DNA of 64,000 nt, from assembly GCA_002050275.1 (NCBI GenBank), contig MWTB01000033.1:2108-66107 (forward strand), written 5' to 3'. This stretch comes from Anaerolineae bacterium UTCFX1. Its GTDB lineage: Bacteria > Chloroflexota > Anaerolineae > Anaerolineales > Villigracilaceae. Both the position numbers and the translations under genes were made by a program. Shown piece after piece: positions 4,094 to 45,348 of the stretch. Numbering within the stretch: position 1 is the stretch's first letter; each line of letters starts with the position of its first letter. The notes under the pieces are model-generated. The model was not told where the DNA came from. It was given only the letters and a program-made list of their open reading frames with translations, and searched no databases.

Positions 4094-5191
4094 ATGCGCC
4101 GTTTTTCTTCCAAATTATTAAATTGGTACGCTGAAAATAAACGAACCCTCCCTTGGCGCGGACATCGAAGCCCTTACGCAGTCTGGGTTTCAGAGATCAT
4201 GCTTCAGCAAACGCGGGTGGAGACGGTGATTCCGTATTTCAAAAAATGGATGAAGCTGTTTCCGAATGTCCGCGTGTTGGCGCGATCCTCTGAACAAGAC
4301 GTATTGAACGCGTGGGAAGGACTTGGTTATTACAGCCGCGTGCGAAACTTTCACAAAGCCGCGAAGATCGTCATTGAAAAATACGGCGGGAAATTGCCAA
4401 ACGATGTAGTTGAATTGCGAAAACTGCCGGGCATCGGTCGCTACACGGCGGGTGCGTTGGCTTCGATCGTTTTTGGCATGGACGAACCGGCTCTTGACGG
4501 TAATTTGAAACGCGTCTATGCGCGCTTATTCGATGTAGAGGCGCCGGTCAATTCAACGGAAGGGGAGAGGCTGCTCTGGGAAATCGCTCACGAGAATTTG
4601 CCCAAAGGCAAAGCGGCAGATTTCAACCAAGCATTGATGGATTTGGGCGCGATGGTTTGCCTGCCGAAGAATCCGCGTTGTGAGGTTTGTCCGCTTACGA
4701 AAGAATGTAAGGCGAAGAAGCGAGGCGTTCAGCATTTGCGCCCGGTGAAAACGGTGAAGAAATCTGTGCCGCATTACGTGCATGTGGCTGTGGTCGTTGT
4801 GGAGCGAATTGGTCGCGGAGCATCCCCGAATGGGGACAATTCGCTCTACGTGTTGCTGGCAAAAAGACCGGCGCGAGGTCTGCTAGCTGGGATGTGGGAA
4901 TTCCCCAACGCGCGCGTTGCGGGCGACCCGGCTGAGGCGTTGGCGCCGGCGCTTGAAACGGCGTACAGGCTGACGGTCCGAAAGAAGCGCGGGATTCAAA
5001 ATCCGCTCGCGATCGTTGAGCATGCTTATTCGCATTTTAGCGTTGTCGTTCATGCTTTTTTATGCGAGTCAGCGCCGAAGAAGACAAGCGCTGCTTTAAG
5101 ATGGATTCGATTGAAAGATTTGGAGAAATATCCGATGGGGAAAATTGACCGGACGATCGCACAAAAAATAATAAACGACAGCCGTTTTTAA
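4094..5191 (+). CDS. mutY: A/G-specific adenine DNA glycosylase MutY
   Basis: Removes adenine mispaired with 8-oxoguanine or guanine in base excision repair. The 365-residue product shows LPWRG near the N-terminus, the helix-hairpin-helix LPGIGRYTAGAL, the catalytic Asp in PALDGNLKRV, and the four-cysteine iron-sulfur loop CLPKNPRCEVCPLTKEC (C-x6-C-x2-C-x5-C). The last third is the Nudix-like domain (VVVVERIGRG, LAKRPARGLLAGMWEFPN) that senses 8-oxoG. The ATG at 4094 gives a normal MutY N-terminus; a TTG at 4070 in the same frame is possible and would overlap the upstream gene. Neither has a clear ribosome binding site. The stop codon lies inside the hairpin of the shared terminator. Confidence 0.95.
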   Translation: MRRFSSKLLNWYAENKRTLPWRGHRSPYAVWVSEIMLQQTRVETVIPYFKKWMKLFPNVRVLARSSEQDVLNAWEGLGYYSRVRNFHKAAKIVIEKYGGKLPNDVVELRKLPGIGRYTAGALASIVFGMDEPALDGNLKRVYARLFDVEAPVNSTEGERLLWEIAHENLPKGKAADFNQALMDLGAMVCLPKNPRCEVCPLTKECKAKKRGVQHLRPVKTVKKSVPHYVHVAVVVVERIGRGASPNGDNSLYVLLAKRPARGLLAGMWEFPNARVAGDPAEALAPALETAYRLTVRKKRGIQNPLAIVEHAYSHFSVVVHAFLCESAPKKTSAALRWIRLKDLEKYPMGKIDRTIAQKIINDSRF

Positions 5192-5204
5192 GGACGGCTG
5201 TCGT
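5175..5204. terminator. Bidirectional terminator between mutY and rnj
   Basis: ACGACAGCCG (5175-5184) pairs exactly with CGGCTGTCGT (5195-5204) around a loop containing five T. It sits between two convergent genes and overlaps the mutY stop codon. Confidence 0.8.
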
Positions 5205-5211
5205 TCGTCGT

Positions 5212-6852
5212 TTACGCCTTGCTTAGCGTGACCAACACCATCGGTCGGCGTCCGGTCTCTTCGTAGAGATAAGAGCGCACTGCGTTAGCGATATCTTTTT
5301 CGCTTTCGCCTCCGCTGCCGACCGTGTCCATAATGTGCGCGCGGACTTCGGGCAGGAGCGCTTCGGCGTCTTCCGGCGAGACGAACCCGCGCGTGATAAT
5401 TTCGGGATCGTGCAACAGCCGCCCGCTGAGTTTATCTACGCTGATGTCAATCAGGAAGATACCGGCGCGCGCAAGTTTTTCGCGTTCGCGCATGATGCTG
5501 AAGTCGGTCTCGCCGATCGAATCGCCGTCTACGAATACATAGCCGCCGGGGATGCGTTCGCCAAGCGTGAGATTTCCGCCTGAAAGGATGACAATTTGTC
5601 CGTTCTCGACTACTACCGCGTTCTTTTCGGGTACGCCGACTTCGACCGCCAACTTTGCGTGGCGCCTGAGGTGACGTAATTCGCCGTGAATCGGGATGAA
5701 GTGTTTGGGTCGAACTAGATTTACGAGGAGTTTCTGCTCTTCTTGCGAAGCGTGACCCGAGACATGCACTGGTGCGATCGCATCGTATACGACCTCGGCG
5801 CCGCGATGCAGCAGGCGGTTAATCGTGCGGCTGATCGTTTCTTCGTTGCCGGGGATGGGATGCGACGACAACACGACCGTGTCGCCTTCTTTCAGGCTGA
5901 AGAGACGGTTTGTGCCGGCGGCGAGCCGTCCTACGATGGATGAAGGTTCGCCCTGCGAGCCGGTGCACATGATCGCTACTTTGTGATCTTGCATTTTTAA
6001 CGCTTGATCTATCGGTACGATCAGATCGTCGGGGATATCTAAGTAGCCTAATTTGCGCGCGATCTTGACGTTGTCCACCATACTCGGACCCGCGAACGTG
6101 ATTTTGCGTCCAAATTTCTTCGTAGAGTCCGCCACTTGTTGCACGCGCGAGATCAGCGATGCGAAGGTCGCTACGATAACGCGTCCTTGCGCCTCGGCGA
6201 AGACCTTGTCGAACGCGGGACCGATCACTTTTTCGGAAGGAGTCCAGCCGGGGCGTTCGGCGTTTGTCGAGTCAGACAGCAGCACGTCTACGCCGCGGCG
6301 CGAGAATTCGGCGAGTTTGGCGTAGTCGGTGGGCCAGCCGTCCACGGGCGTATGATCGAATTTAAAATCGCTCATGTGAACAACGAGCCCGGCGGGGGTT
6401 GTGATTCCCAACCCGACTGAATCGGGAATTGAGTGACAGATATGGAAGAATTCCACTTTGAAGGGTCCGATCTCTATCGTGCCGCCTGCTTCGATGGTGT
6501 TTAGGTCTGCTTTGGTGGAAGCGCTGTTGCGCGCAAGTTTGCCTTCGATTAATCCGCGCGTGAGCGGCGTAGCGTAGACCGGCGCGCTGACATCGTTAAG
6601 CAGATGATGGATCGCGCCGATGTGATCTTCATGCCCATGTGTGATGACGATGCCGACCACGTTGCCGGCTCTGGCGCGCAAATATTCATAATCGGGAACG
6701 ATGTAATCAATTCCAATCATATCGTTAGTGGGGAACATGATGCCGGCATCTACCACCAGAATCTTGTTCTGGAATTCATAGGCGGTCATGTTCTTGCCTA
6801 CTTCCCCGAGCCCCCCCAAGGGAATAATCTTCAGTTTTCCTTGCTTACTCAT
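5212..6852 (-). CDS. rnj: Ribonuclease J
   Basis: A 546-residue RNase J, the metallo-beta-lactamase/beta-CASP RNase combining endonuclease and 5'-3' exonuclease action in mRNA decay and rRNA maturation. It opens with KLKIIPLGGLGEVGKNM, has the zinc motif HGHEDH at about residues 73-78, a second ligand region HICHSIPDSVG, SDSTNAERPG, the beta-CASP segment MCTGSQGEPSS and the HVSGHASQEE / PIHGE motifs. The C-terminal domain, which drives oligomerisation in this family, is complete. The ATG at 6852 is preceded by AAAGGA about 12 bases away. The leader holds its own terminator hairpin (6935-6956), so expression may be set by attenuation. Confidence 0.97.
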   Translation of the reverse strand: MSKQGKLKIIPLGGLGEVGKNMTAYEFQNKILVVDAGIMFPTNDMIGIDYIVPDYEYLRARAGNVVGIVITHGHEDHIGAIHHLLNDVSAPVYATPLTRGLIEGKLARNSASTKADLNTIEAGGTIEIGPFKVEFFHICHSIPDSVGLGITTPAGLVVHMSDFKFDHTPVDGWPTDYAKLAEFSRRGVDVLLSDSTNAERPGWTPSEKVIGPAFDKVFAEAQGRVIVATFASLISRVQQVADSTKKFGRKITFAGPSMVDNVKIARKLGYLDIPDDLIVPIDQALKMQDHKVAIMCTGSQGEPSSIVGRLAAGTNRLFSLKEGDTVVLSSHPIPGNEETISRTINRLLHRGAEVVYDAIAPVHVSGHASQEEQKLLVNLVRPKHFIPIHGELRHLRRHAKLAVEVGVPEKNAVVVENGQIVILSGGNLTLGERIPGGYVFVDGDSIGETDFSIMREREKLARAGIFLIDISVDKLSGRLLHDPEIITRGFVSPEDAEALLPEVRAHIMDTVGSGGESEKDIANAVRSYLYEETGRRPMVLVTLSKA

Positions 6853-9640: not shown

Positions 9641-10466
9641 ACTTCCTACAACAGCAAACGATATTCGGAAAGGGAGCGGAGCGCCGGTCATTTTGATTCA
9701 TGGTCTTGCCGCCTCGCTTCATGATTGGGACGATCTAATACCCGAGCTGACGAAGAACGGTTATGCCGCCTACGCGCTCGATCTGCTCGGTCATGGCGAT
9801 AGCCCTAAACCGAAGACGCGCGCTTATCGAATCCAATGGCTGAGCGAACATTTCTTTGCCTGGATGGAATCGCTCCACTTAACCGAACCGGCGATTCTCG
9901 TCGGACATTCGCTCGGCGGTTATATCGCATTGGAATTTGCGCGCCGCTTTCCCGAACGAACCCGCGGATTAATTCTGGTTAATCCGTTTTATACGCGCTC
10001 CCAACTTCCCTATTTGCTCCGCGCCACCTACGCCAGCTCCAATCTGCGCGACTTTATCATTGGGCATACGCCCGAATGGATGTTTCGCATGATTGTGGAT
10101 GCGACCAGCGTCGCAATGGGCAATAGCAACGGATCTCGCCATGCCCTGCCCGAACACGTCCGTTTGCAAACTGCGATAGACTACACGCGCACCGCGCCCG
10201 GCATCTACTACATCCCTAACGACATCGCTGACGCGACCGACGCTTTCCCTCAAATCGTCGCGCCGACTCTTGTGGTGTGGGGCGATCGCGATCAAACTCT
10301 GGCGCCTGCGTCTTTCCCGCCGTTGGTGGATGCGCTTCCTCACGCCGCCGGCAGGACGATCAAGGCTGGGCATGTGCCGCATCAATCGAACGCCGAAGAA
10401 TTTAATCGAGTTGTGTTGGAATTTCTGAAACGGATTGAGGACCCTTCGCTACTTCATAGAGGCTAA
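9618..10466 (+). CDS. Alpha/beta hydrolase
   Basis: A 282-residue soluble alpha/beta hydrolase. It shows LIHGLAASLHDWDD, the nucleophile elbow VGHSLGGYIA, the acidic residue in VWGDRDQTLAP and the catalytic His in KAGHVPHQSNAEEF. Members include esterases, epoxide and haloalkane hydrolases; the substrate is not evident. The ATG at 9618 lies inside the end of the ligase fusion, which itself carries a hydrolase domain, so the two products are probably made together and may act on related acyl compounds. The last 18 bases overlap the convergent SH3-domain gene. Confidence 0.85.
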   Translation: MKNELEIELPTTANDIRKGSGAPVILIHGLAASLHDWDDLIPELTKNGYAAYALDLLGHGDSPKPKTRAYRIQWLSEHFFAWMESLHLTEPAILVGHSLGGYIALEFARRFPERTRGLILVNPFYTRSQLPYLLRATYASSNLRDFIIGHTPEWMFRMIVDATSVAMGNSNGSRHALPEHVRLQTAIDYTRTAPGIYYIPNDIADATDAFPQIVAPTLVVWGDRDQTLAPASFPPLVDALPHAAGRTIKAGHVPHQSNAEEFNRVVLEFLKRIEDPSLLHRG

Positions 10467-11069
10467 GAAGTAGAACGAACCTTGCGACGACGCTTCCGCC
10501 GACCAGCCGACCTGCCCGTCGGCGAGTTCGATTTGCCACCATACATATGAGCCACCGGCTTCGTGCGGCATGCATTCGGGCCCGCCGACGATCTTCACTT
10601 GCGCGCCGGCGAGATTTGTCTTAATCCAATTATTGGCTATGCCCGGTGAAGAACGGAAGTTCAAATTGCGTTGAACGACGGCTTGTTCGCCGACTGCTAA
10701 TTGTGAGTATGAGAGCGCCTTGCAGATTTCCGCCTCAGCCGGAGTTGCCGCCGTTGCGAGTGGGGCTTCCGCTGTTGCCGTTGCCGAAGAAGCGGCATTA
10801 GGCGCAGCGGGCGGCGGCGTTTCAGACGCGCTTATCGCGCCGACTGCAGGGATAACCGTCGGCGTTGTCGTGGGGAGCGCCGTTGGCGAAAGGGTTGTTG
10901 ACGTGGGTGAAACGCTCGACTCTGTGGGGCGGAGCGCCGTTGGCGCGATGGCTTGAGGCGGCATTTGAGCGCGTCTGCTCCAAGTTAGGAAGACGAGGAG
11001 GAGCGTTAGGATGAGAGCTACGATAAATTTGAATAGATCGTAAAATAGGGCGCGCGTAGGAAGGTTCAT
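10449..11069 (-). CDS. Membrane-anchored SH3b-domain protein
   Basis: A 206-residue protein. One transmembrane helix near residues 12-30 (FKFIVALILTLLLVFLTW) is followed by about 85 residues of Pro/Thr/Ala linker and a C-terminal bacterial SH3 domain starting near QLAVGEQAVVQRNLNFRSSPG, with NNWIKTNLAGAQVKIVGGP and WWQIELADGQVGW. SH3b domains outside the membrane often bind cell-wall or surface polymers. The start at 11069 lies 8 bases after the stop codon of the upstream HhH gene; an earlier in-frame ATG at 11105 lies inside that gene. It shares its promoter with that gene. Confidence 0.75.
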   Translation of the reverse strand: MNLPTRALFYDLFKFIVALILTLLLVFLTWSRRAQMPPQAIAPTALRPTESSVSPTSTTLSPTALPTTTPTVIPAVGAISASETPPPAAPNAASSATATAEAPLATAATPAEAEICKALSYSQLAVGEQAVVQRNLNFRSSPGIANNWIKTNLAGAQVKIVGGPECMPHEAGGSYVWWQIELADGQVGWSAEASSQGSFYFLASMK

Positions 11070-34773: not shown

Positions 34774-35649
34774 TTATACCTCGGGCTTAGACTTGCGTTT
34801 CTGGTTGGGCGGCGCGCTTCTTCTACGCATTGCGGCGGCGAGATGGCTTAAGCCGATGCTGGCGAAGTATAACAAGATCATGGGCAACATGACTAACCCC
34901 ATATTCACCGGGTCTACCGTTGGCGTCACCGCTGCAGCGACGATCGCGATCACGACGATCGCCGCTCTCCATTGTTGCGCTAGCGTAGCCGGCGATACTA
35001 TCCCGAGGTAGCTTAGCGCGAAAATAACAAGGGGAAATTCAAAGAAAACGCCGATCCAGGTCATGAGACTTGTAATAAATCCGAAGTATTCTTTTGCCGC
35101 CCAGAATTGCGAAATGGCGGTGAAACTTCCGAGAAAGGGCAGCGCGGCGGGAATCAAGACGAAGTAGGTGAATGCGACCCCGAGGACGAAGAGAAACGAT
35201 GCGGTGGGGATGATCAGCAATGTGTAGCGTTTCTCGCGCGACGACAGACCTTTGGCGGCGAACCACCAGAATTCGAATGCAATATACGGTAGAGAGATGA
35301 TGAAACCGCTCGTCAGCGCGACACGCATGAAGACGCCGATCTCTTCAGTCACTTCGATGGCTTGCAAATTGGGCAATCCGCCTACGGGACGCGCGAGATA
35401 GTCCATTAAGGGCAGCGTGAAATAAAAGGAGACGCCCACAGTCAGCGTCAGACAGAGAACGATTCTTAAGAGATGCCCGCGCAGGTCTTCAATGTGATCC
35501 CAGACTTCTTTTTTATAGCTTTCTTTTGAGTCAGAGGCGAGGAATGCCCAGGCGCGTTTTGTCAATATGAACGGGGTCGCTAGAATACGGTAGGACAGCG
35601 CGAACGGAAAGAGCGCTGCGCGAAATATATTTCGGAACACGTTAGTCAT
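34774..35649 (-). CDS. tatC: Twin-arginine translocase subunit TatC
   Basis: A 291-residue TatC, the substrate-receptor subunit for export of folded proteins. Conserved features: KEVWDHIEDLRGHLLR before the first helix, the FYFTLPLMDYLARP loop, LTSGFIISLPYIAFEFWWF, and six transmembrane helices ending near LLYFASIGLSHL. A 45-residue N-terminal extension precedes the core. The start overlaps the tatA/B stop by 8 bases, so translation is coupled. Confidence 0.95.
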   Translation of the reverse strand: MTNVFRNIFRAALFPFALSYRILATPFILTKRAWAFLASDSKESYKKEVWDHIEDLRGHLLRIVLCLTLTVGVSFYFTLPLMDYLARPVGGLPNLQAIEVTEEIGVFMRVALTSGFIISLPYIAFEFWWFAAKGLSSREKRYTLLIIPTASFLFVLGVAFTYFVLIPAALPFLGSFTAISQFWAAKEYFGFITSLMTWIGVFFEFPLVIFALSYLGIVSPATLAQQWRAAIVVIAIVAAAVTPTVDPVNMGLVMLPMILLYFASIGLSHLAAAMRRRSAPPNQKRKSKPEV

Positions 35650-36010
35650 TTGATGAGAACGGTTCTTCTTTGGGCGCAGCCGCAGAAGAGATATGATCGG
35701 GAGTTTTGGACGGAGATAGCGGCTGAGCGGATGGAGAGATCGGCTTGCGTTCGCGCGGATTTGCGATCTTGAGCAAACTTTGCTCCGCTTCCCAATCTTC
35801 TAAATTCGCTTCGCGCATTAATTTGTTTGGTAGATGGCTAAGTTCATTCGACGCGTTGCGGAACGTCTGCCAAAGTTCGGAACGATTCATTTTATTCAAC
35901 CAGCGTCCTAGTGCGCGCCCTGTTTTTTGCATGTCTTTCGGTCCCAGCGCGATGACGGCAATGACGAGGATGAAGATCAGTTCGGAAAAACCGATGCCGA
36001 AGATTTCCAT
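35642..36010 (-). CDS. Twin-arginine translocase subunit TatA/TatB
   Basis: A 122-residue protein with an N-terminal helix (FGIGFSELIFILVIAVIALGP), the FGP-like hinge, an amphipathic helix (QKTGRALGRWLNKMNR) and a charged tail. The Glu in the membrane helix and the length favour a TatB-like role, but the two types are hard to tell apart by eye. It directly follows nusB and overlaps tatC. Confidence 0.88.
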   Translation of the reverse strand: MEIFGIGFSELIFILVIAVIALGPKDMQKTGRALGRWLNKMNRSELWQTFRNASNELSHLPNKLMREANLEDWEAEQSLLKIANPRERKPISPSAQPLSPSKTPDHISSAAAPKEEPFSSND

Positions 36011-37673: not shown

Positions 37674-38348
37674 TTATTTTTCCAACCCTGTTCCCAACGT
37701 CAACCCTCCACCGAGCGCGATGAATGCCGCGATCAAAAACGCATCCTGCCAAAAGCGGATGGGGAACAGGCGGATCAACGTATCCGAATAGAGGAACAGC
37801 CACGAGTCGCCCTCGAAAAATAATTTATGGAACGCCGTGAAGAAACCCCAAAAGACATTTGGGTTGACAACGATTCCCGCGATGACGATCAAGCCGATGA
37901 CGACTGCCAGCCCCACCATCAACCATCCGCCCCGCCTCAACCCCTGACGGTATGCCTGTTCCCAATGCGCAGTCTTTGACCAAATCCCCAGCGCGAGCAG
38001 AATCGCTAGCATCGCATACCAAACATTCAACGCACCCCGTGTGACGCGCTTCACGTCTCGCATGTGACTCAACTCGCGCTCATTGTATAACGGAGTCCCA
38101 TCGTCGAATTTTAGATCGCCGAGGTAGGAAATGCCCGCGTTGTTGATGAGATACTCCACCGCGTACGGCGCCCACTTCAAACGGTCTTCTTTTGTGAAGC
38201 CATACTCATCGGGAGGAAAGTACGGCATGTTGTATTCGATTTTGAGGAATGTGGTGGTTAACAGCAAGCGCAGTCCCAGCCCGATGAGGGCGAGAGGGAT
38301 GAGGAGGGCGATGATAATAGAAAGGATTTGGAACATTTTGTTTTTCAT
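37674..38348 (-). CDS. TIGR01906-like (DUF1461) membrane protein
   Basis: A 224-residue membrane protein with an N-terminal helix, a soluble loop of about 90 residues (YNMPYFPPDEYGFTKEDRL, YNERELSHMRDVK) and four further helices. The loop and helix order match the TIGR01906 integral membrane family as I recall it; its function is unknown. The ATG at 38348 lies directly beyond a palindromic operator; an in-frame ATG at 38369 overlaps the palindrome and is rejected. Confidence 0.78.
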   Translation of the reverse strand: MKNKMFQILSIIIALLIPLALIGLGLRLLLTTTFLKIEYNMPYFPPDEYGFTKEDRLKWAPYAVEYLINNAGISYLGDLKFDDGTPLYNERELSHMRDVKRVTRGALNVWYAMLAILLALGIWSKTAHWEQAYRQGLRRGGWLMVGLAVVIGLIVIAGIVVNPNVFWGFFTAFHKLFFEGDSWLFLYSDTLIRLFPIRFWQDAFLIAAFIALGGGLTLGTGLEK

Positions 38349-38349
38349 G

Positions 38350-38370
38350 TTTGTCTTATTGTAAGACAAA
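38350..38370 (-). promoter_or_regulatory. Palindromic operator upstream of the DUF1461 gene
   Basis: TTTGTCTTA and TAAGACAAA are exact reverse complements around TTG. The 21 bp cover the predicted transcription start and leader, two bases from the ATG. Confidence 0.65.
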
Positions 38371-38472: not shown

Positions 38473-38679
38473 ATGGAAGATCAACAGCATCAATTTACCG
38501 ATAAGGAACTGGAAGTGATTCTCCTATTGCTCGAAGGCAAAAGCACACAGGAGATCGCCTTGCGACTTAGCGTTTCGACGCGTGCAGTCGAACATCGCCT
38601 GACACACATTTTTCAAGAATTGAGCGTAGGCTCGCGAACAGAGGCGGTGTTGAAGCTCACTTACTTGTTCAAAAAGTAA
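38473..38679 (+). CDS. Stand-alone LuxR-type helix-turn-helix protein
   Basis: A 68-residue protein consisting of little more than a GerE/LuxR DNA-binding domain: FTDKELEVILLLLEGKSTQEIALRLSVS, RAVEHRLTHIFQELSVGSRTEAVLKLTYLF. There is no receiver or ligand-binding domain. GGAGG lies before the ATG at 38473; an earlier ATG (38443) lacks one. It opens the A/T-rich island. Its 3' end and flank are duplicated exactly at 40249-40288. It probably regulates the downstream promoters, perhaps through the GATTC..GAATC dyad in the repeat. Confidence 0.88.
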   Translation: MEDQQHQFTDKELEVILLLLEGKSTQEIALRLSVSTRAVEHRLTHIFQELSVGSRTEAVLKLTYLFKK

Positions 38680-38702
38680 CAAGATTCGGGAATCCGTAGT
38701 TG
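38663..38702 (+). repeat. Exact 40-bp repeat, copy 1
   Basis: Covers the last codons of the LuxR-type gene and the following flank, including the dyad GATTCGGGAATC and the first bases of a -35 box. It is identical to 40249-40288. Confidence 0.9.
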
Positions 38703-38728
38703 ACATTGATGTTTGTCGGTGCTATCTT
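38700..38728 (+). promoter_or_regulatory. Promoter 1 of the island
   Basis: TTGACA (38700-38705), 17-base spacer, TATCTT (38723-38728). The -35 box begins inside the 40-bp repeat, as in promoter 2 at 40286-40314. Confidence 0.7.
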
Positions 38729-38772
38729 ATCCCGAGCGAGTTTCTGGAAATTCAATTATGAAAGAGGATTCC

Positions 38773-39354
38773 ATGAGGACGTTGCGAGCTAAGTCAAGGG
38801 TGATCATGTTTACGATAATAACATCGTTCGTTGTAAGTTCTGTCATGGCATCTGGACCAACAAATGCCCTGGCAAGTAAATTGATTTCTCATTCGCCCTT
38901 ATGTAGCGATACAAGTTGTCGGGGGCATGATGTTTATGTAAAACATTGTGAAGGTTCTATTAGCACAATAGCACAGGCGAGCTCCCTAAACAATTATGTT
39001 ACTACTTATCTACGAAAATCAAACACTTGCAATTCGCTTTGGGCAAGAGCGGATAGATTATCATCGTATGCCGGAAACTGGATGCTTTCAGAGGCGCTGG
39101 AATGCGCGAACAATAACTGCATATATAATCTGACAGTTCCTCCATCTAACCCTTCGACCTACTATTACTATTATCCTTGGACCGGAAATCGGCAGACACC
39201 ATCTCCCGGCCGATCTAATTCATGGTATAGCGATATGGTAGCTGGAAGTAAAAAAGCTTGTGCAAGGGGATGGGTATACACTTCGAATCCGTCCAATTAT
39301 GTCACCAATTCAAGTGTTTACAAAGCCTGGGCGTGTAACGATCCGGGTACATAA
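38773..39354 (+). CDS. Exported DUF2690-like cysteine-rich protein
   Basis: A 193-residue exported protein. A signal peptide (residues about 8-34, ending TNALASK) leads into LCSDTSCRGHDVYVKHCEGS, TYLRKSNTCNSLWARADRL and GNWMLSEALECANNNC. This spacing of Cys with a late LWARA segment resembles DUF2690 proteins of actinobacteria, whose function is unknown. A Tyr-rich stretch (YYYYYPWTG) and a C-terminal part follow. AGAGG precedes the ATG at 38773. Codons are rich in A and T compared with the surrounding housekeeping genes. Confidence 0.72.
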   Translation: MRTLRAKSRVIMFTIITSFVVSSVMASGPTNALASKLISHSPLCSDTSCRGHDVYVKHCEGSISTIAQASSLNNYVTTYLRKSNTCNSLWARADRLSSYAGNWMLSEALECANNNCIYNLTVPPSNPSTYYYYYPWTGNRQTPSPGRSNSWYSDMVAGSKKACARGWVYTSNPSNYVTNSSVYKAWACNDPGT

Positions 39355-39391
39355 TGCTGTTCTACTAATTAATAGGAAGGAGTCTATCGAA

Positions 39392-40123
39392 ATGAAAACA
39401 GGCAGAAATAAATTGATTTCTTGGATGGTCATATTTATCTTGATGGTAGTTTCAATTAGCTTTTCAGCTTCAGCATGGTTGCCGATATCAAAGGATGCCT
39501 CTGCCAGTTCGCTTAGAGAAGGTGTTGGCTTAGATTCGCAACTTGCCAACAGTTCCAGCGCTGTGAAGGCAGAGCCTGCTTCATCAAGCGAAAATTTTGT
39601 GATGAAATCTAGTATTAACGGATTAACCGCGGAAGTCACCCAAGTTGATCTAAACCCTGACGCTCCTACGGTGAGCGTTTGTGCTGATGTTCCCACCATT
39701 GCAGACTGGTTGCCGCAATTCTCTGCGGCATATAATGGTCAATCTGTCGGAGTACTGGGATGGATGTTACTTGACCCAAATAATACTACCTATCAGGAAA
39801 AACATCGATGTTATCTTGTTATGCTTTCGACCGAGCACCTAGGCTCAAAGAAAACTTCTGGGACACTTATATTGTCTCTGGATTACTTTGAGACTTCCAT
39901 TCCAGAGAGATTGCCCCTAGATTTGATTGCAAAAGCAAAGGAACGCCTTAAAGATTTGGGTATTGATTTTGAAGTCCAAGATGTCCCGCATGGACAAAAC
40001 TATATCTTTACCAAAAAGCCAGATTTCTACAGTGAAGCAGAAGCTTTCCAAAAGGTGAGAGAGGCTTTGAAAGATACAGTATACGGCCCATGGGTGTTTA
40101 GAATTGATCTAAATCAAAAATAA
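39392..40123 (+). CDS. Exported protein of unknown function (island)
   Basis: A 243-residue protein with one N-terminal hydrophobic helix (SWMVIFILMVVSISFSASAW) that may be a signal peptide or anchor, a Ser/Ala-rich linker, and a C-terminal domain of about 160 residues with two Cys (SVCADVP, RCYLVML). I do not recognise the family. AAGGAG lies about 11 bases before the ATG. It follows the DUF2690-like gene by 37 bases and is followed by a hairpin, so these two genes form the first transcription unit of the island with the LuxR gene. Confidence 0.65.
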   Translation: MKTGRNKLISWMVIFILMVVSISFSASAWLPISKDASASSLREGVGLDSQLANSSSAVKAEPASSSENFVMKSSINGLTAEVTQVDLNPDAPTVSVCADVPTIADWLPQFSAAYNGQSVGVLGWMLLDPNNTTYQEKHRCYLVMLSTEHLGSKKTSGTLILSLDYFETSIPERLPLDLIAKAKERLKDLGIDFEVQDVPHGQNYIFTKKPDFYSEAEAFQKVREALKDTVYGPWVFRIDLNQK

Positions 40124-40149
40124 GTTCGGGTTGGCTTGATTAAAATTGT

Positions 40150-40173
40150 CGGTGCGCTTTCAAAAGCGCACCG
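40150..40173 (+). terminator. Hairpin after the first island unit
   Basis: CGGTGCGCTTT (40150-40160) pairs exactly with AAAGCGCACCG (40163-40173). It lies 27 bases after the stop codon at 40123. The T run is weak. Confidence 0.55.
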
Positions 40174-40265
40174 TTGAGTTTCACGTGGCAAGTATTTATG
40201 AAAAACTGGGGGTAAATTCACTAGCTGGGGCGACCATACAATTGATCCACTTGTTCAAAAAGTAA
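40167..40265 (+). pseudogene. Truncated second copy of the LuxR-type HTH
   Basis: In frame with the TAA at 40263-40265 the DNA reads RTVEFHVASIYEKLGVNSLAG, then ATIQLIHLFKK. This is the last 32 residues of a GerE/LuxR domain. Its ending LFKK and 3' flank are identical in DNA to the intact gene at 38473; the upstream part is diverged, and everything before the last two helices is missing. No start codon is available, so it is a relic left by duplication or deletion. Confidence 0.82.
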
Positions 40266-40288
40266 CAAGATTCGGGAATCCGTAGTTG
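40249..40288 (+). repeat. Exact 40-bp repeat, copy 2
   Basis: Identical to 38663-38702, and placed the same way: end of a LuxR-type reading frame, dyad GATTCGGGAATC, then a -35 box. Confidence 0.9.
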
Positions 40289-40314
40289 TGGTTTGCCTTT
40301 TGTTGCTATATACT
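40286..40314 (+). promoter_or_regulatory. Promoter 2 of the island
   Basis: TTGTGG (40286-40291), 17-base spacer, TATACT (40309-40314). Its position relative to the 40-bp repeat is the same as that of promoter 1, though the DNA after the repeat differs. Confidence 0.65.
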
Positions 40315-40350
40315 CATGTTAGTATCCTGTGATAGAGAGGAGTGAACACT

Positions 40351-41064
40351 ATGTTAAGCCGTCACGACTTTCTAAAAATGATCGGGGCATTCGGTTTTGT
40401 GCTGATGCCGTTGAATAAACTGTTGCGCAAATCCACTTTCGGACTACAAGATAAAGGAGGTGGAGAATTGTACGAGGGCTTCGTACTTCTTGATCAAGAC
40501 GCTCCTATTCCCTCCTTCGTTCAAGTTGCACCGTGCCCAATTCTTTGTAATGTCGACGAATCTACATTGCTTGATCCTGAACTGGATGCGTATAAAGGGG
40601 ATATCTCTTGGTTCGATAGCATTGAAAACTTAAGAAACAATATTGATTTTCGCATATTCGTACTAGGTTCGCTACCCCATAAAATGACATTTTTACACGG
40701 ATATGTTCTGAGATTTGCAGGTTCTGGTGAAGTATGGGAAGCAAGGCTTGACTTTGGCTTCGAAAATAATCGCGAGCCGCTGATTAGTCTTTCAGCCCGC
40801 CCAATATTTGCGCGGCCATACCCAGTGTGGCCCGTTCTTACTTATCCTAAAAAAGAGCCACCTGAGATAATTCTTGATGATGAATATATTATAAGAAAAC
40901 CTAATAAAGTAGTTTTTACACCCGAGCAAGGTATCATGTTGCCAACTGATCAGGGATACACTTTGCAATGGATAAAGAGGGATGTGCTTTACACAATTTT
41001 TATGGAATACGAAGGATGGCGCGATAATGTTGAAAGTGTTGGAAAATCCCTTGTTGAAAAATAA
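40351..41064 (+). CDS. Exported protein of unknown function with a Tat-like signal
   Basis: A 237-residue protein. The N-terminus SRHDFLKMIGAFGFVLMPLN looks like a twin-arginine signal (S-R-R-x-F-L-K) in which the second Arg is His. The rest has mixed strands with two close Cys (VAPCPILCNVD) and a Pro-rich segment; I do not recognise the family. The ATG at 40351 has GAG upstream; a GTG at 40342 is also possible. It begins the second island unit, expressed from promoter 2. Confidence 0.65.
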   Translation: MLSRHDFLKMIGAFGFVLMPLNKLLRKSTFGLQDKGGGELYEGFVLLDQDAPIPSFVQVAPCPILCNVDESTLLDPELDAYKGDISWFDSIENLRNNIDFRIFVLGSLPHKMTFLHGYVLRFAGSGEVWEARLDFGFENNREPLISLSARPIFARPYPVWPVLTYPKKEPPEIILDDEYIIRKPNKVVFTPEQGIMLPTDQGYTLQWIKRDVLYTIFMEYEGWRDNVESVGKSLVEK

Positions 41065-41099
41065 AATAATTGGTTCTCAAAAATGTTAAGGAGGATAAA

Positions 41100-41660
41100 A
41101 TGGCTCTCGTAACAGTCTACGTTAAGGGTCCCATCTCGGGCACTATCACAGGCCGAAATAAGTATTGCACATTTCCCTATGCCTCTGATGTCTGTAATGG
41201 GTCAGGGAGTACTCATGGCACATGTATGAGTTCATCTAACCCGGTCGATATCGGTGGATCTGGAAACATAAACCTTCGAGTAAATTATCCCAACATATTA
41301 AGTATTGTCACCTATGTAAGCCTTTCTTGTTGTAGTTCAAGTTATGACGATAACTATAGACGAATGGTAACCGTAGAGTTGTACGGAAAATCGAATGGTG
41401 CTTGTTATATGGGATCCGTTAGGTTTGGTCATGTTGCAAGCCCAGCCGTTACTAATGGTACATTGTATAATTTGTCAAGTGGCACAAAATTGATCGGAAC
41501 GGTACCCAGTGGCAATCCTGGGAATTGTTACACTGGAGCGCATTCTCATAGGGAAAGATCGGGAGGATCAGTGGTCGCCCCATGTTGCGGCGCAACAGTC
41601 TCATCATCAACTAATATTTATAAATTTACTTGGGATAATGGAATAGTCTGTCCAACTTAA
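41100..41660 (+). CDS. Ten-cysteine protein resembling the C-terminal half of an M23 peptidase
   Basis: A 186-residue protein without signal peptide or helix. It has ten Cys, including two CC pairs (77-78 and 162-163). From about residue 105 it resembles LytM/M23 peptidases: GSVRFGHVAS (His111), NGTLYNLSSGTKLIGTVPSG, then CYTGAHSHRERSGG (His148/His150 as the HxH motif). The first zinc motif HxxxD is not found, so a zinc site would be incomplete. Many Cys suggest disulfides outside the cell, yet no export signal is visible. GGAGG precedes the ATG at 41100. It lies 35 bases after the previous gene. Confidence 0.6.
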   Translation: MALVTVYVKGPISGTITGRNKYCTFPYASDVCNGSGSTHGTCMSSSNPVDIGGSGNINLRVNYPNILSIVTYVSLSCCSSSYDDNYRRMVTVELYGKSNGACYMGSVRFGHVASPAVTNGTLYNLSSGTKLIGTVPSGNPGNCYTGAHSHRERSGGSVVAPCCGATVSSSTNIYKFTWDNGIVCPT

Positions 41661-41687
41661 TACCTGTTATTCTCGCTTGTAATGAGA

Positions 41688-41713
41688 TTTCCCCGCAATT
41701 TCCGGCGGGGAAA
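41688..41713 (+). terminator. Hairpin before the MauE-like gene
   Basis: TTTCCCCGC (41688-41696) and GCGGGGAAA (41705-41713) around an eight-base loop, followed by a T-containing stretch. It probably ends or limits the transcript of the Cys-rich gene. Confidence 0.6.
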
Positions 41714-41753
41714 TAATTTCTTAATTTTATAAAGACTTTGTAAAAGTAAACCG

Positions 41754-42337
41754 ATGATGTTTTTGAATATGGACGTACAATCTTTGATATTGACAATCTT
41801 TCGCCTGCTTCTCGGGCCAATTTTTTTAGTGTCATTTATTGGAAAAGCAAGTGAGCGCCACCACTTCATTGACGTGCTCGCAACTTTTAAATTGATTCCC
41901 AGTTCATGGCTTCAGCCAATTGCTGGTAGTCTTATTATCGGGGAATTAATAGTTGCTATCATGCTGTTGCTAGGCTGGCAAAGTCAGGCGCAGCGGCATT
42001 ATGTGGATTTCTCCTAATAATTTTTACCATTGCTGTAGGCTTGAGTTTAATGCGTAAACATACCGATTTAGAGTGCGGGTGCTTCGGGGTCAAACATAAT
42101 CAAAAAATTAGCATTAAACTCGTTAGTCGTAATTTTCTTTTGCTGACGATGGCTTTGTGTATCATGCTCTGGGGTGGTGGTTTATTAACCCTAGATAGTC
42201 GCCCGCTCATTTTCGAGAGATTGTCTATTGACGGAACATTTCTTCCACTTATGCTTACATGTCTCGGAGCATTGGTGCTCATCTTGCTTGTCAGACAATT
42301 GCTTCGTTTGGTTCTATTGATGCCTCTGGAGGAATAA
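41754..42337 (+). pseudogene. MauE-like membrane protein, interrupted by a frameshift
   Basis: Two adjoining frames make one MauE/DoxX-type protein. The first (41754 to about 41990) gives FRLLLGPIFLVSFIGKASERHH and PIAGSLIIGELIVAIMLLLGW, then runs into a stop at 42015-42017. One base out of phase, near 41985-41995, the reading continues AAALCGFLLIIFTIAVGLSL and KHTDLECGCFG, the CGCFG redox motif of MauE, down to 42337. The four-helix MauE protein helps form disulfides in methylamine dehydrogenase maturation. Either the gene is broken or the sequence carries a one-base error in CAGGCGCAGCGG. Confidence 0.78.
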
Positions 42338-42546
42338 TGACTGGTTTTTGGCTTGTGAGCTATATCGTGTTATGGCTACTTGTGATTGTGGGTGGTTTAA
42401 TAATAATTGCTTTGGCTCGTGAAGTAGAGACTTTACATAACCACGTGGAGTTTTTATTACCTTATTTATCCAAAACCGTTTCGGACAGTCCGGTGCGCGG
42501 TGAACAAGAAAGCGAAAGAGATGATGCTATCAAAACATCAACTTAG
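42337..42546 (+). CDS. MauD-like N-terminal membrane stub
   Basis: A 69-residue protein with one transmembrane helix (FWLVSYIVLWLLVIVGGLIIIALAREVETLHN) and a short charged tail. The opening is that of MauD, in which this helix anchors an extracytoplasmic thioredoxin domain. Here the thioredoxin part with CxxC is absent. The ATG overlaps the stop codon of the MauE-like frame (TAATG), so the two were built to be translated together. It is either a truncated gene or a minimal partner. Confidence 0.65.
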   Translation: MTGFWLVSYIVLWLLVIVGGLIIIALAREVETLHNHVEFLLPYLSKTVSDSPVRGEQESERDDAIKTST

Positions 42547-43789
42547 TATATTACTGATAGTTACTTTTATTGTATTATTCTTAACCGAAACTTGTGCGAT
42601 CCCCAATTCGTCTAGGGTAATAATACAAACGATAACGCATACGCCTTATCCAACAGGAACTTTAAGTCTCCATATTATTGAACCCTTGGTTAATAGTCCG
42701 CGATTACGCTTCGACAGTTGGTCACCAGATAGCCGCTGGATTGCGTATTGGTTTGCAGATGGAGACAATTTGCCCGCTCATCTTGCATTCGTGGAAGCTC
42801 AGTCAGGTAAAGTTTGTGAGCACGAAGAAGTTGATTCTGTTGATATTTTTAGCGGCAATGTGCTTTGGGTGGAAGGTAATACTCCAATTACTGTTCAGAA
42901 TTCGGGAAAAGTTGCTTTTAGCGGCGTACCTTGTGAGACATTCCCTTCAGTTGATAGTTCTGCAATCTTTGAAAAAGAAGAAGGTCGACTCTCGCCAAAT
43001 GGTCGCTATCGTGCGGACACAAGTGTCAGTGACTGGGAAGGGGAACTTATACACAATGTTACAACGATCACCGAGATTTCGACGGACCAGATCGTTGCCT
43101 CTTTAAAATGGGATGGTAGTCCTCACGCGTGGGCTGAGAGTGGATGGCTCAACAATGAATTGTATCTTGTTGGACTTGATGTTGATCGAGGAGCGTTATA
43201 TGTATCCGCCCCTGAGGGTAAGGTGGGTAGTGTAGTACATGATCTGATGGGGTTGAATGTTCAGAATGTAGGATATGTCACTCATGTTGCCCGTTATACT
43301 AACTTGGCTACAGGTGAGTATCATCTGCTCTTTGAACTATGGAATGGTCCTCCGGGTTCGCCGCTTTTACTCTATCATAGTGAGTTGGATATTGTTGAGG
43401 AACTTCCTTTTTATAGATCTTGGATTGTCAACGGCTCAGGTATCTCATCTGATGGAGAGTGGCTTTTCCTGAGTTACCCCGCATCAAAACTAAGTGACGA
43501 AATTCCCGATTTCTGGATTCGTGCTCTTGATCCTCCCGATAGAACGGCTTTGAAGTTGGCAGAAGGGAAGGGATTCGCAGGCTTTTCTGAGGAATCTAGT
43601 AAAATGGTTTTTGTGGACAAAGGAGTAGTAGATATTTTGGATTTCCCAGGCGGCGAGACATTTGGCATATGGCAGGCACCGGGCTACCAGATTGACCGTG
43701 CTTGGTGGTCGTCGGATGGTAAATATTTGGCGGTGCAAGGATTTGGCATAGAGTCCGACTCGCAGACATTATTTGTTATCGAACCATAA
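42521..43789 (+). CDS. Secreted beta-propeller protein (TolB/WD40-like)
   Basis: A 422-residue protein with an N-terminal export helix (SILLIVTFIVLFLTETCA) and repeated strands of a TolB-like propeller: DSWSPDSRWIAYW, GRLSPNGRYRADTSVS, GISSDGEWLFLSYPAS, GFSEESSKMVFVDKG, WWSSDGKYLAVQG. The motif S.DG.W/Y..... repeats about every 50 residues. No enzyme motif is seen. Its start lies within the end of the MauD-like stub (26 bases overlap). It is the last gene of the A/T-rich island. Confidence 0.72.
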   Translation: MMLSKHQLSILLIVTFIVLFLTETCAIPNSSRVIIQTITHTPYPTGTLSLHIIEPLVNSPRLRFDSWSPDSRWIAYWFADGDNLPAHLAFVEAQSGKVCEHEEVDSVDIFSGNVLWVEGNTPITVQNSGKVAFSGVPCETFPSVDSSAIFEKEEGRLSPNGRYRADTSVSDWEGELIHNVTTITEISTDQIVASLKWDGSPHAWAESGWLNNELYLVGLDVDRGALYVSAPEGKVGSVVHDLMGLNVQNVGYVTHVARYTNLATGEYHLLFELWNGPPGSPLLLYHSELDIVEELPFYRSWIVNGSGISSDGEWLFLSYPASKLSDEIPDFWIRALDPPDRTALKLAEGKGFAGFSEESSKMVFVDKGVVDILDFPGGETFGIWQAPGYQIDRAWWSSDGKYLAVQGFGIESDSQTLFVIEP

Positions 43790-43797
43790 TATATTTC

Positions 43798-45348
43798 CTA
43801 CTCTAAATACTCTGTTCCTCCTTCAAGAATAAATCGAATCACCATATCGTTGACGATCCACTCGATGGGCGCGTGGTCGTCGGTGAAGACGGTGGTTGGC
43901 TCGAATCCAGTTTTGAGGTTCGCGAAGGTCACCTGCATGGTGGTGATGAGCAACGGATTGACAGTTGTATCACTTGATAATGCCAGCAAATTCATCGCAA
44001 AGTTTTCAGGGTTGGTTTCCTGCTTAGTGGCGAAGATCATTGTGTTGAGCGAACCGGGGATATCCACCGTGTAAATGGAAGGGAAGACAGTCGCCATCGT
44101 GGTAGCGAGTCCGTTGATGAGGCGGCGGTCACCGGGGACGGAGGCGGAGTTGATGGTGAGTACCCCGTTCTCCGTCAGATGTGAGGCGCAGCTCTCGAAG
44201 AACTCCTGTGTCGTCATGTGCGGAGGAATGTACGGCGGGCGGTACGCGTCTACGGCGATGATGTCATATTTCTGTTCGCTTCGTTCGAGGTTGAGACGTC
44301 CATCGCCAATGATGACGTTCAGGTTCGACATGTTCATGTCGAAATATTTTCGTCCCACCTCGACGATCTTCGGGTCGAGTTCGTAACCGTCAATAGAAAT
44401 GTTTTCGTAGACGGCGGTCATCTGCCGCGCGGTCGTCCCTGCCGCGAGACCGACGATGGCGACGCGTTTTATATCGGATGGTTTGCGGTTTGCGTAAAAA
44501 TACGGGCTGACGAGGAACTGATCCCACGGTCCGTTGTATTGCAGGGTGTCGGGATGATAGATCGAGTGAACGCCTTGTCCCTCGTTGAGACGCAGGATCG
44601 TGAAGCCGTTTTGATTCAACACTTCGATGTAGTTGTACGCCGACTCGGTTTCGTAAATTTGCGCCACATTCGTTTTCAGGGATTGATTCGAGGTGAGCAA
44701 CGCCAGCGCAACCAATACGAACGGCATCCAAATATGTTTGAGCATGTCGCGTTGACTGGCAAAGCGCGCCAAGCCAACGAGCGCGACCAGCAGAAGGATC
44801 ATGCTGAATAATAAAAACGTGTTCTTTGTTCCAATTGCGGGGATGGTGACGAGGGTCGGTAAGAATGTCCCGATGAATGAACCGAGCGTTGAGATCGCGT
44901 AGATTTGACCCGACGTTTGTCCCGCGCGCGAGGTGTCGTCCACTGTGAGGCGAATCGCGTACGGGGAGATCGTTCCCAGTAATGTGATAGGGATGATGAA
45001 CAAAATCAACACTGCGGCGAACGATGCGCCGAGGATTCCGACTTGCAACGAGTCGAACGCGGTTGCAGCGGCACGTAAAACGGGACTCGCAATGTAGGGA
45101 ACAAGTCCCAGCGTGAACGCTCCCCACGCAAGGACGCGATACATCGCTGCGAGAGTCGGGTTCGCGTCTGCCCATTTGCCGCCGATGAAATATCCAAGCG
45201 TGAGGTAGATAAGGATCAGCCCGATGATACTTGCCCAAACGATGTTGCTCGTGCCGAACACGTTGCCGATGAGCCGTCCCGCCGCGAGTTCGGCGGCGAG
45301 TGTGGTCATACCTGAAATGAAGACGGTGAAGAGGAGGTATTTTTTCAT
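43798..45348 (-). CDS. Membrane-fused spermidine-synthase-like protein
   Basis: A 516-residue protein. Residues about 1-215 form seven or so transmembrane helices (GMTTLAAELAAGRLIG, LGYFIGGKWADANP). From about 270 there is a class I methyltransferase-fold domain of the spermidine synthase type: VAIVGLAAGTTARQM, IDGYELDPKIVEVGRKYF, IIGDGRLNLERSEQKYDIIAVDAYRPPYIPPHMTT. Fusions of this kind are common in environmental bacteria, and their substrate is unproven. A TATAAT lies 9 bases before the ATG on the minus strand. Confidence 0.85.
   Translation of the reverse strand: MKKYLLFTVFISGMTTLAAELAAGRLIGNVFGTSNIVWASIIGLILIYLTLGYFIGGKWADANPTLAAMYRVLAWGAFTLGLVPYIASPVLRAAATAFDSLQVGILGASFAAVLILFIIPITLLGTISPYAIRLTVDDTSRAGQTSGQIYAISTLGSFIGTFLPTLVTIPAIGTKNTFLLFSMILLLVALVGLARFASQRDMLKHIWMPFVLVALALLTSNQSLKTNVAQIYETESAYNYIEVLNQNGFTILRLNEGQGVHSIYHPDTLQYNGPWDQFLVSPYFYANRKPSDIKRVAIVGLAAGTTARQMTAVYENISIDGYELDPKIVEVGRKYFDMNMSNLNVIIGDGRLNLERSEQKYDIIAVDAYRPPYIPPHMTTQEFFESCASHLTENGVLTINSASVPGDRRLINGLATTMATVFPSIYTVDIPGSLNTMIFATKQETNPENFAMNLLALSSDTTVNPLLITTMQVTFANLKTGFEPTTVFTDDHAPIEWIVNDMVIRFILEGGTEYLE

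Follow-up and report, generated by a model that had tools for sequence, protein, structure and literature searches.

What is encoded by the AT-rich island at positions 38,473 to 43,789 of a stretch of contig MWTB01000033.1 from the Chloroflexota member Anaerolineae bacterium UTCFX1, and do its genes belong together? The window analysed here is the whole stretch of 64,000 nucleotides. Calculated in 1-kb windows, GC content was 0.424 across 38.4-43.8 kb versus 0.537 (standard deviation 0.023) elsewhere in the window, where the lowest 1-kb value was 0.479, confirming the deviating composition that an earlier note had claimed for about 5.3 kb. The listed genes lie at the coordinates given for them, subject to the corrections below. 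The note had also suggested that the island may encode a new secreted complex of several proteins that brings its own helpers for disulfide formation, and a set of this kind does recur, although its parts differ from those listed. Based on comparison of genomes, the island holds a conserved, previously unrecognised Chloroflexota gene set, consisting of a cysteine-rich enzyme, a carrier with a twin-arginine translocation (Tat) signal and usually one of two proteins of disulfide chemistry.

The enzyme of the island is a ten-cysteine protein without signal peptide (41100..41660, + strand) and is, judging from its modelled fold and its His/Asp motif, a divergent M23 (LytM-type) metallopeptidase with predicted catalytic activity. 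Enzymes of this family cleave peptidoglycan cross-bridges, and several of them are bacteriocins. The AlphaFold (AF2) model (pLDDT 90.6, pTM 0.88) was aligned by VIA-align to StM23 (9gy1) with Z 9.9 over 117 residues at an rmsd of 2.8; the top rows were nearly all M23-type chains, dozens of them, and the structural neighbours included EnvC, DipM and LytM. Foldseek matches were mostly M23 proteins as well, none with a strong E-value, and among PDB sequences the profile of the enzyme found a single weak match (E 1.9), regarded as chance. The M23 motif residues H111, H148 and H150 were found in 22/22 homologues and H39 and D50 in 21/22, and C78 and C143 were invariant across the 22 enzyme sequences, with 7-25 cysteines per family member. 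The note had described an exported protein with an M23-like end. The M23 part is upheld by fold and motif, whereas an export signal of its own is missing: the start codon lies directly at the mature domain, preceded by a clear ribosome-binding site in most loci, and no signal peptide was present at any locus with a readable start. The gene starts were assigned in this analysis, on loci mostly from metagenome-assembled genomes.

Immediately before the enzyme gene, a protein with a Tat-type signal (SRHDFLK; 40351..41064, + strand) is encoded, here termed the carrier. A profile scan located its homologue directly upstream of the M23-like gene and on the same strand in 29/29 loci, some of which are truncated or frameshifted. 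The carriers of relatives feature a [STG]RRxFLK-type motif followed by a hydrophobic stretch, and the twin arginines were present in 19 of the 20 carriers with a readable motif. In several lineages the carrier additionally has a DCC-like thiol-oxidoreductase domain with a CxxC motif, which precedes the Tat motif and is therefore predicted to face the cytoplasm. TatC was found in 13/13 carrier genomes tested, and in the window the host genes tatC (34774..35649, - strand; PF00902, E 8.1e-53) and tatA/B (35642..36010, - strand; PF02416, E 3.1e-5) are located 2.4-3.6 kb from the island, with about 2.7 kb for tatC. At one locus (L114) carrier and enzyme are fused in one frame; this resembles a deletion chimera and was not used as proof.

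How widely the pairing occurs was assessed by searching 301 genomes of the order, the queries being the cysteine-rich enzyme and its upstream neighbour. The enzyme gave 7 matches and the carrier 6, with the two genes adjacent in the 6 common genomes, while the seventh enzyme match was a fragment (G102; G- and L-numbers denote compared genomes and loci, G000 being the window genome). Further searches of the phylum, the class and GTDB contigs yielded additional loci from more families and orders, the class total being 19/396 genomes. As an independent test, loci found later with the enzyme alone as query were inspected, and the carrier was adjacent in all of them. Several paralogues occur within one genome in G500, G673 and G793. 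Rather than being scattered, the genes for carrier, enzyme, propeller lipoprotein and MauE form a recurring set that is also seen elsewhere in the phylum, in further families and orders. A literature search of partial coverage retrieved no paper that connects M23 with Cys-rich and twin-arginine, nor a relevant one on MauE and Chloroflexi.

A second, usual feature is a helper of likely redox function. Across the 29 loci, MauE was encoded at 9 and a DCC domain was fused to the carrier at 16, with both at 0 and neither at 4, 3 of these 4 loci being on contigs shorter than 5 kb. The mutual exclusion had a Fisher p of 7e-5 by locus and of 0.026 by family, the latter allowing for kinship, as related genomes are not independent; family f20 holds both types, in different genomes. 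We read this either-or pattern as MauE and DCC replacing each other functionally. The window mauE (41754..42337, + strand) is frameshifted near 41989, as seen in a DNA alignment and in PF07291 matches in two frames, the halves covering profile positions 3-69 and 66-126. The MauE-like membrane protein of the note is thus of the proposed family, but this copy of its gene is not intact. The mauE of the congeneric genome G015 carries a nonsense codon at a different site (DNA alignment), and an assembly error may alternatively account for the frameshift in G000. The following MauD gene is an N-terminal stub of 70 amino acids (42334..42546, + strand), a transmembrane segment plus coil with neither thioredoxin domain nor CxxC, so that a working MauD is not supported. 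The stub is kept in relatives (G015, G029, G044, G012 and G008), its L053 counterpart has an N-terminal TIGR02661 match (E 0.016), and in several loci a stub without thioredoxin domain stands beside MauE. An intact MauE/MauD pair is present elsewhere in the same genome (L001/L023, contig C29).

Downstream of the enzyme, most loci encode a lipoprotein with PD40 repeats and a lipobox. In the window this is a beta-propeller-type, lipoprotein-like protein (42500..43789, + strand) with 37% identity to the L053 lipoprotein. The secreted propeller of the note is supported as PD40-like through this orthologue (E 3.5e-7 in L053), while the match of the window copy itself is weak and its lipobox is degenerate (TETC).

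With some reservation, we favour the reading that the island core is a module by which a disulfide-armoured M23 metallopeptidase is matured and then exported, carried by Tat as a hitchhiker. The enzyme would bind the carrier in the cytoplasm, and its cysteines would be oxidised with the help of the DCC domain or of MauE, for which the MauD stub may serve as a scaffold. The folded pair would then cross the membrane via Tat, and outside the cell the peptidase would cut peptidoglycan cross-bridges, most likely those of competing bacteria. Such a bacteriolysin-like role is plausible, and the lipoprotein may hold the enzyme at the surface or protect the producer. Several points weigh against this reading. 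The window carrier has RH in place of RR, and both species of the genus (G000, G015) carry a disrupted mauE. The DCC (PF04134) matches of the carriers reach at best E 0.0011, under the Pfam cut-off, with the CxxC present, and at pLDDT 59 the model of the carrier is too poor for fold assignment. None of 15 enzyme members matched a Pfam profile, PF01551 (M23) included. murC was found in 13/13 carrier genomes, so that the producer's own wall is a possible target and absence of murein genes does not decide between own and foreign wall. Finally, co-export, oxidation, catalysis and target of the enzyme are all predicted. If the reading is true, one gene set would unite two processes that are usually separate, the formation of disulfides and the export of folded proteins by Tat. 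MauE and DCC, long the subject of guesses about their roles, would then form a naturally occurring pair of helpers that can replace each other, and MauE would gain a second, testable substrate class beyond methylamine metabolism. The set would also supply wall-lytic enzymes with unusually many disulfides.

Because its mauE is broken and its Tat motif reads RH, the window copy may be impaired, or reliant on the intact MauE/MauD on C29. That it is a decaying island, once functional and now losing mauE, Tat motif and lipobox, is a doubtful yet serious possibility: the two mauE lesions, the RH and TETC motifs and a luxR remnant at the island head fit decay, while the frames of carrier, enzyme and propeller are intact, with dN/dS of 0.19-0.32, and the C29 pair could still be available. 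The same Tat-carried enzyme might also serve the producer's own envelope in wall turnover or surface remodelling, anchored by the lipoprotein propeller and without antagonism. Peptidoglycan synthesis, as indicated by MurC in all 13 carrier genomes, speaks for this rather unlikely alternative, as does the self-directed action of many M23 proteins, including the structural neighbours EnvC, DipM and LytM. Presence in few genomes (6/301 of the order, 19/396 of the class), on exchanged accessory islands and with paralogues in G500, G673 and G793, would however be unusual for housekeeping, and this combination of rarity, multiple paralogues and exchange favours antagonism.

Two further explanations assign the enzyme to another place or another chemistry. 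The missing signal peptide would suit an enzyme retained in the cytoplasm, such as a lysin kept in store until the cell lyses, with a carrier unrelated to its transport; this we consider improbable in view of the constant pairing with a Tat-signal protein, the downstream lipoprotein, the membrane thiol protein and the many cysteines, which fit either an oxidising compartment or oxidation with the aid of a helper. A new methylamine-dehydrogenase-like redox enzyme, with a cysteine-rich small subunit and a propeller large subunit matured by MauE/MauD, is close to the likeness drawn in the note and could draw on MauE at 9/29 loci and on the cysteine-rich protein beside a propeller. It is hardly credible, as that protein has the fold and motif of an M23 peptidase and is not MauA, MauD has no thioredoxin domain and DCC stands in place of MauE at 16 loci. 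The methylamine dehydrogenase reading was accordingly rejected on the M23 fold, and the note's own remark that no subunit of that enzyme is recognisable agrees with our finding of none.

The favoured module, Tat hitchhiking of an oxidised M23 enzyme, shares features with several known systems. M23 (LytM/lysostaphin-type) metallopeptidases, including the bacteriolysins lysostaphin and zoocin A, have the same fold and His/Asp motif, but the island enzyme differs from them in lacking a signal peptide and any Pfam profile match, in its 7-25 cysteines and in its constant Tat-signal neighbour. Halocin C8 is a Tat-exported, cysteine-rich bacteriocin with an N-terminal immunity part; its combination of a Tat-signal carrier with a cysteine-rich active part resembles the island in layout by analogy, whereas the window has two genes and a peptidase fold. 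In the mau cluster, MauE likewise stands beside a cysteine-rich protein predicted to be exported (MauA, with MauE/MauD), in contrast to the island with its membrane stub of MauD, its MauE replaceable by a DCC domain and no dehydrogenase subunits. Tat hitchhiker export is established for other proteins, and in hydrogenase-2 HybO/HybC, PaoABC and the gamma/alpha subunits of FAD-glucose dehydrogenase the signal-less partner is encoded beside the Tat-signal partner, as here (PMC4273604, PMC6719666). Different from these, the cargo here is a cysteine-rich peptidase, and the carrier often has a thiol-redox domain of its own. Candidate clusters for ribosomally synthesised and post-translationally modified peptides (RiPPs) from decRiPPter in Streptomyces contain MauE (MauD once) beside cysteine-rich precursors, again as here (PMC7794033), whereas the island cargo is a folded enzyme, and the second locus of the genome, on C29, is closer to the RiPP kind.

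This second MauE locus (L023 6700-12900, G000:C29; also L027 in G015, L028 in G002 and L031 in G001) comprises a bare LuxR gene, an ATP-binding cassette (ABC) ATPase, MauE, a full MauD, a cysteine-rich peptide, a MacB-like permease, a signal peptidase and an ABC exporter. The peptide has a conserved leader (MLKEYLSEAVSLL) and a hypervariable core of 8-14 cysteines, and the locus is likely a cysteine-rich RiPP or bacteriocin system. Other loci vary the theme. L032 (6281-8916) has the layout of the window island with unrelated cargo and carrier, namely a bare LuxR gene, a signal-less 12-cysteine protein (barwin/RlpA-like by eye), an SRRDFLK Tat protein, MauE and a lipoprotein. L029 (4223-5887) and L112 (2781-4618) encode MauE, MauD and a small cysteine-rich protein with Tat signal in a MauA-like layout, no other mau genes being recognised there. 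In L115 (577-1815) and L116 (979-1722), a DCC domain and/or a Tat signal are combined in single proteins with a middle domain and a tail extremely rich in cysteine, and in L107 of G500 (4873-5685 and 10104-10871) DCC-type N-terminal stretches occur on metalloprotease-like proteins with HExGH motifs. Tentatively, one could envisage that Chloroflexota have a general system of delivery: a Tat-anchored carrier together with an exchangeable thiol-oxidase (MauE or fused DCC) would fold, oxidise and export varied signal-less cysteine-rich effectors, a polymorphic antagonism with constant delivery part and variable active part. The effectors proposed would be the M23 enzymes, the 12-cysteine protein of L032, the tails of L115 and L116 and the L107 proteins.

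How did the island come to lie where it does? A Lit-like gene forms its left border (37674..38369, - strand; PF07314, E 6.6e-20) and a SpeE-like gene its right border (43798..45348, - strand; PF01564, E 4.9e-16), the latter being the same neighbour across the genus. The Lit-like gene adjoins SpeE in genomes with an empty site, as in the sister species G010, G011, G003, G007, G016 and G006, and in other sister species the junction is filled with different cargo. Comparison with G015 (H5_CFX6) gave identities of 0.91-0.99 from ~40.5 to 43.8 kb and ~0.82-0.97 in the SpeE gene, with synonymous divergence (dS) of 0.09-0.21 in the island cargo versus 0.43-0.55 in flanking genes. The luxR gene at the island head has a core-like dS of 0.48 and the carrier signal region is divergent; the exchange therefore concerned the cargo that lies downstream of luxR. 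The dN/dS values, 0.19 for the M23 gene, 0.20 for the carrier and 0.32 for the propeller, indicate purifying selection. These comparisons mark the island as accessory DNA at a genus hotspot, headed by a LuxR-type regulator, with downstream cargo exchanged by recombination, and the gene set is rare, patchy and recently moved. In G001 (L031, C29) the second MauE system adjoins a SpeE-like gene, the same border as in the window, so one hotspot takes both island kinds. A phage or plasmid origin was not backed by any tblastn match in a phage or plasmid collection. A plain foreign donor does not suffice to explain the low GC, because in GC-rich hosts M23 genes have a third-position GC (GC3) of 0.33-0.58 in the same operons as carriers of 0.68-0.77; in L106, L108, L110 and L113, M23 genes have GC3 0.34-0.58 within operons of 0.7-0.8. 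Independent cargo exchange or selection on codon use could be the cause.

The head of the island is less uniform than its core. The bare LuxR-type helix-turn-helix regulator of the note is confirmed as a 68-amino-acid protein (38473..38679, + strand; PF00196, E 3.1e-12), and the orthologues that occupy this site in G015, G012 and G002 head differing cargo, while the MauE loci L023 and L032 are headed by other bare LuxR genes. The note had missed a C-terminal remnant of a second luxR gene (40158..40268, + strand; LuxR HMM positions 34-68, E 5.7e-9), which aligns with luxR, as well as an exact 40-bp direct repeat (no strand applies) that has two copies only in the genome, one at the luxR 3' end and beyond (38663..38702) and one at the 3' end of the remnant (40249..40288). 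The two copies flank a cassette of two genes. One encodes an exported DUF2690-like protein (38758..39354, + strand) whose gene stands but whose family match is below the cut-off (PF10901, E 4.3e-4; 20.9 versus 23 bits) and which is missing from the syntenic G015 island and every other locus. The other encodes an exported protein found only in this genome (39389..40123, + strand). The latter, one of two exported proteins of unknown kind in the note, has no recognised domain, with no Pfam or NCBIfam match; its companion at 40351-41064 is the carrier. Hence the 5.3 kb are not the single coherent set that had been supposed: by synteny, 38703-40288 is a separate insertion, absent in the relative G015. 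Right after the DUF2690 cassette, a perfect 11-bp inverted repeat without T-run (40150-40173) overlaps the start of the luxR remnant.

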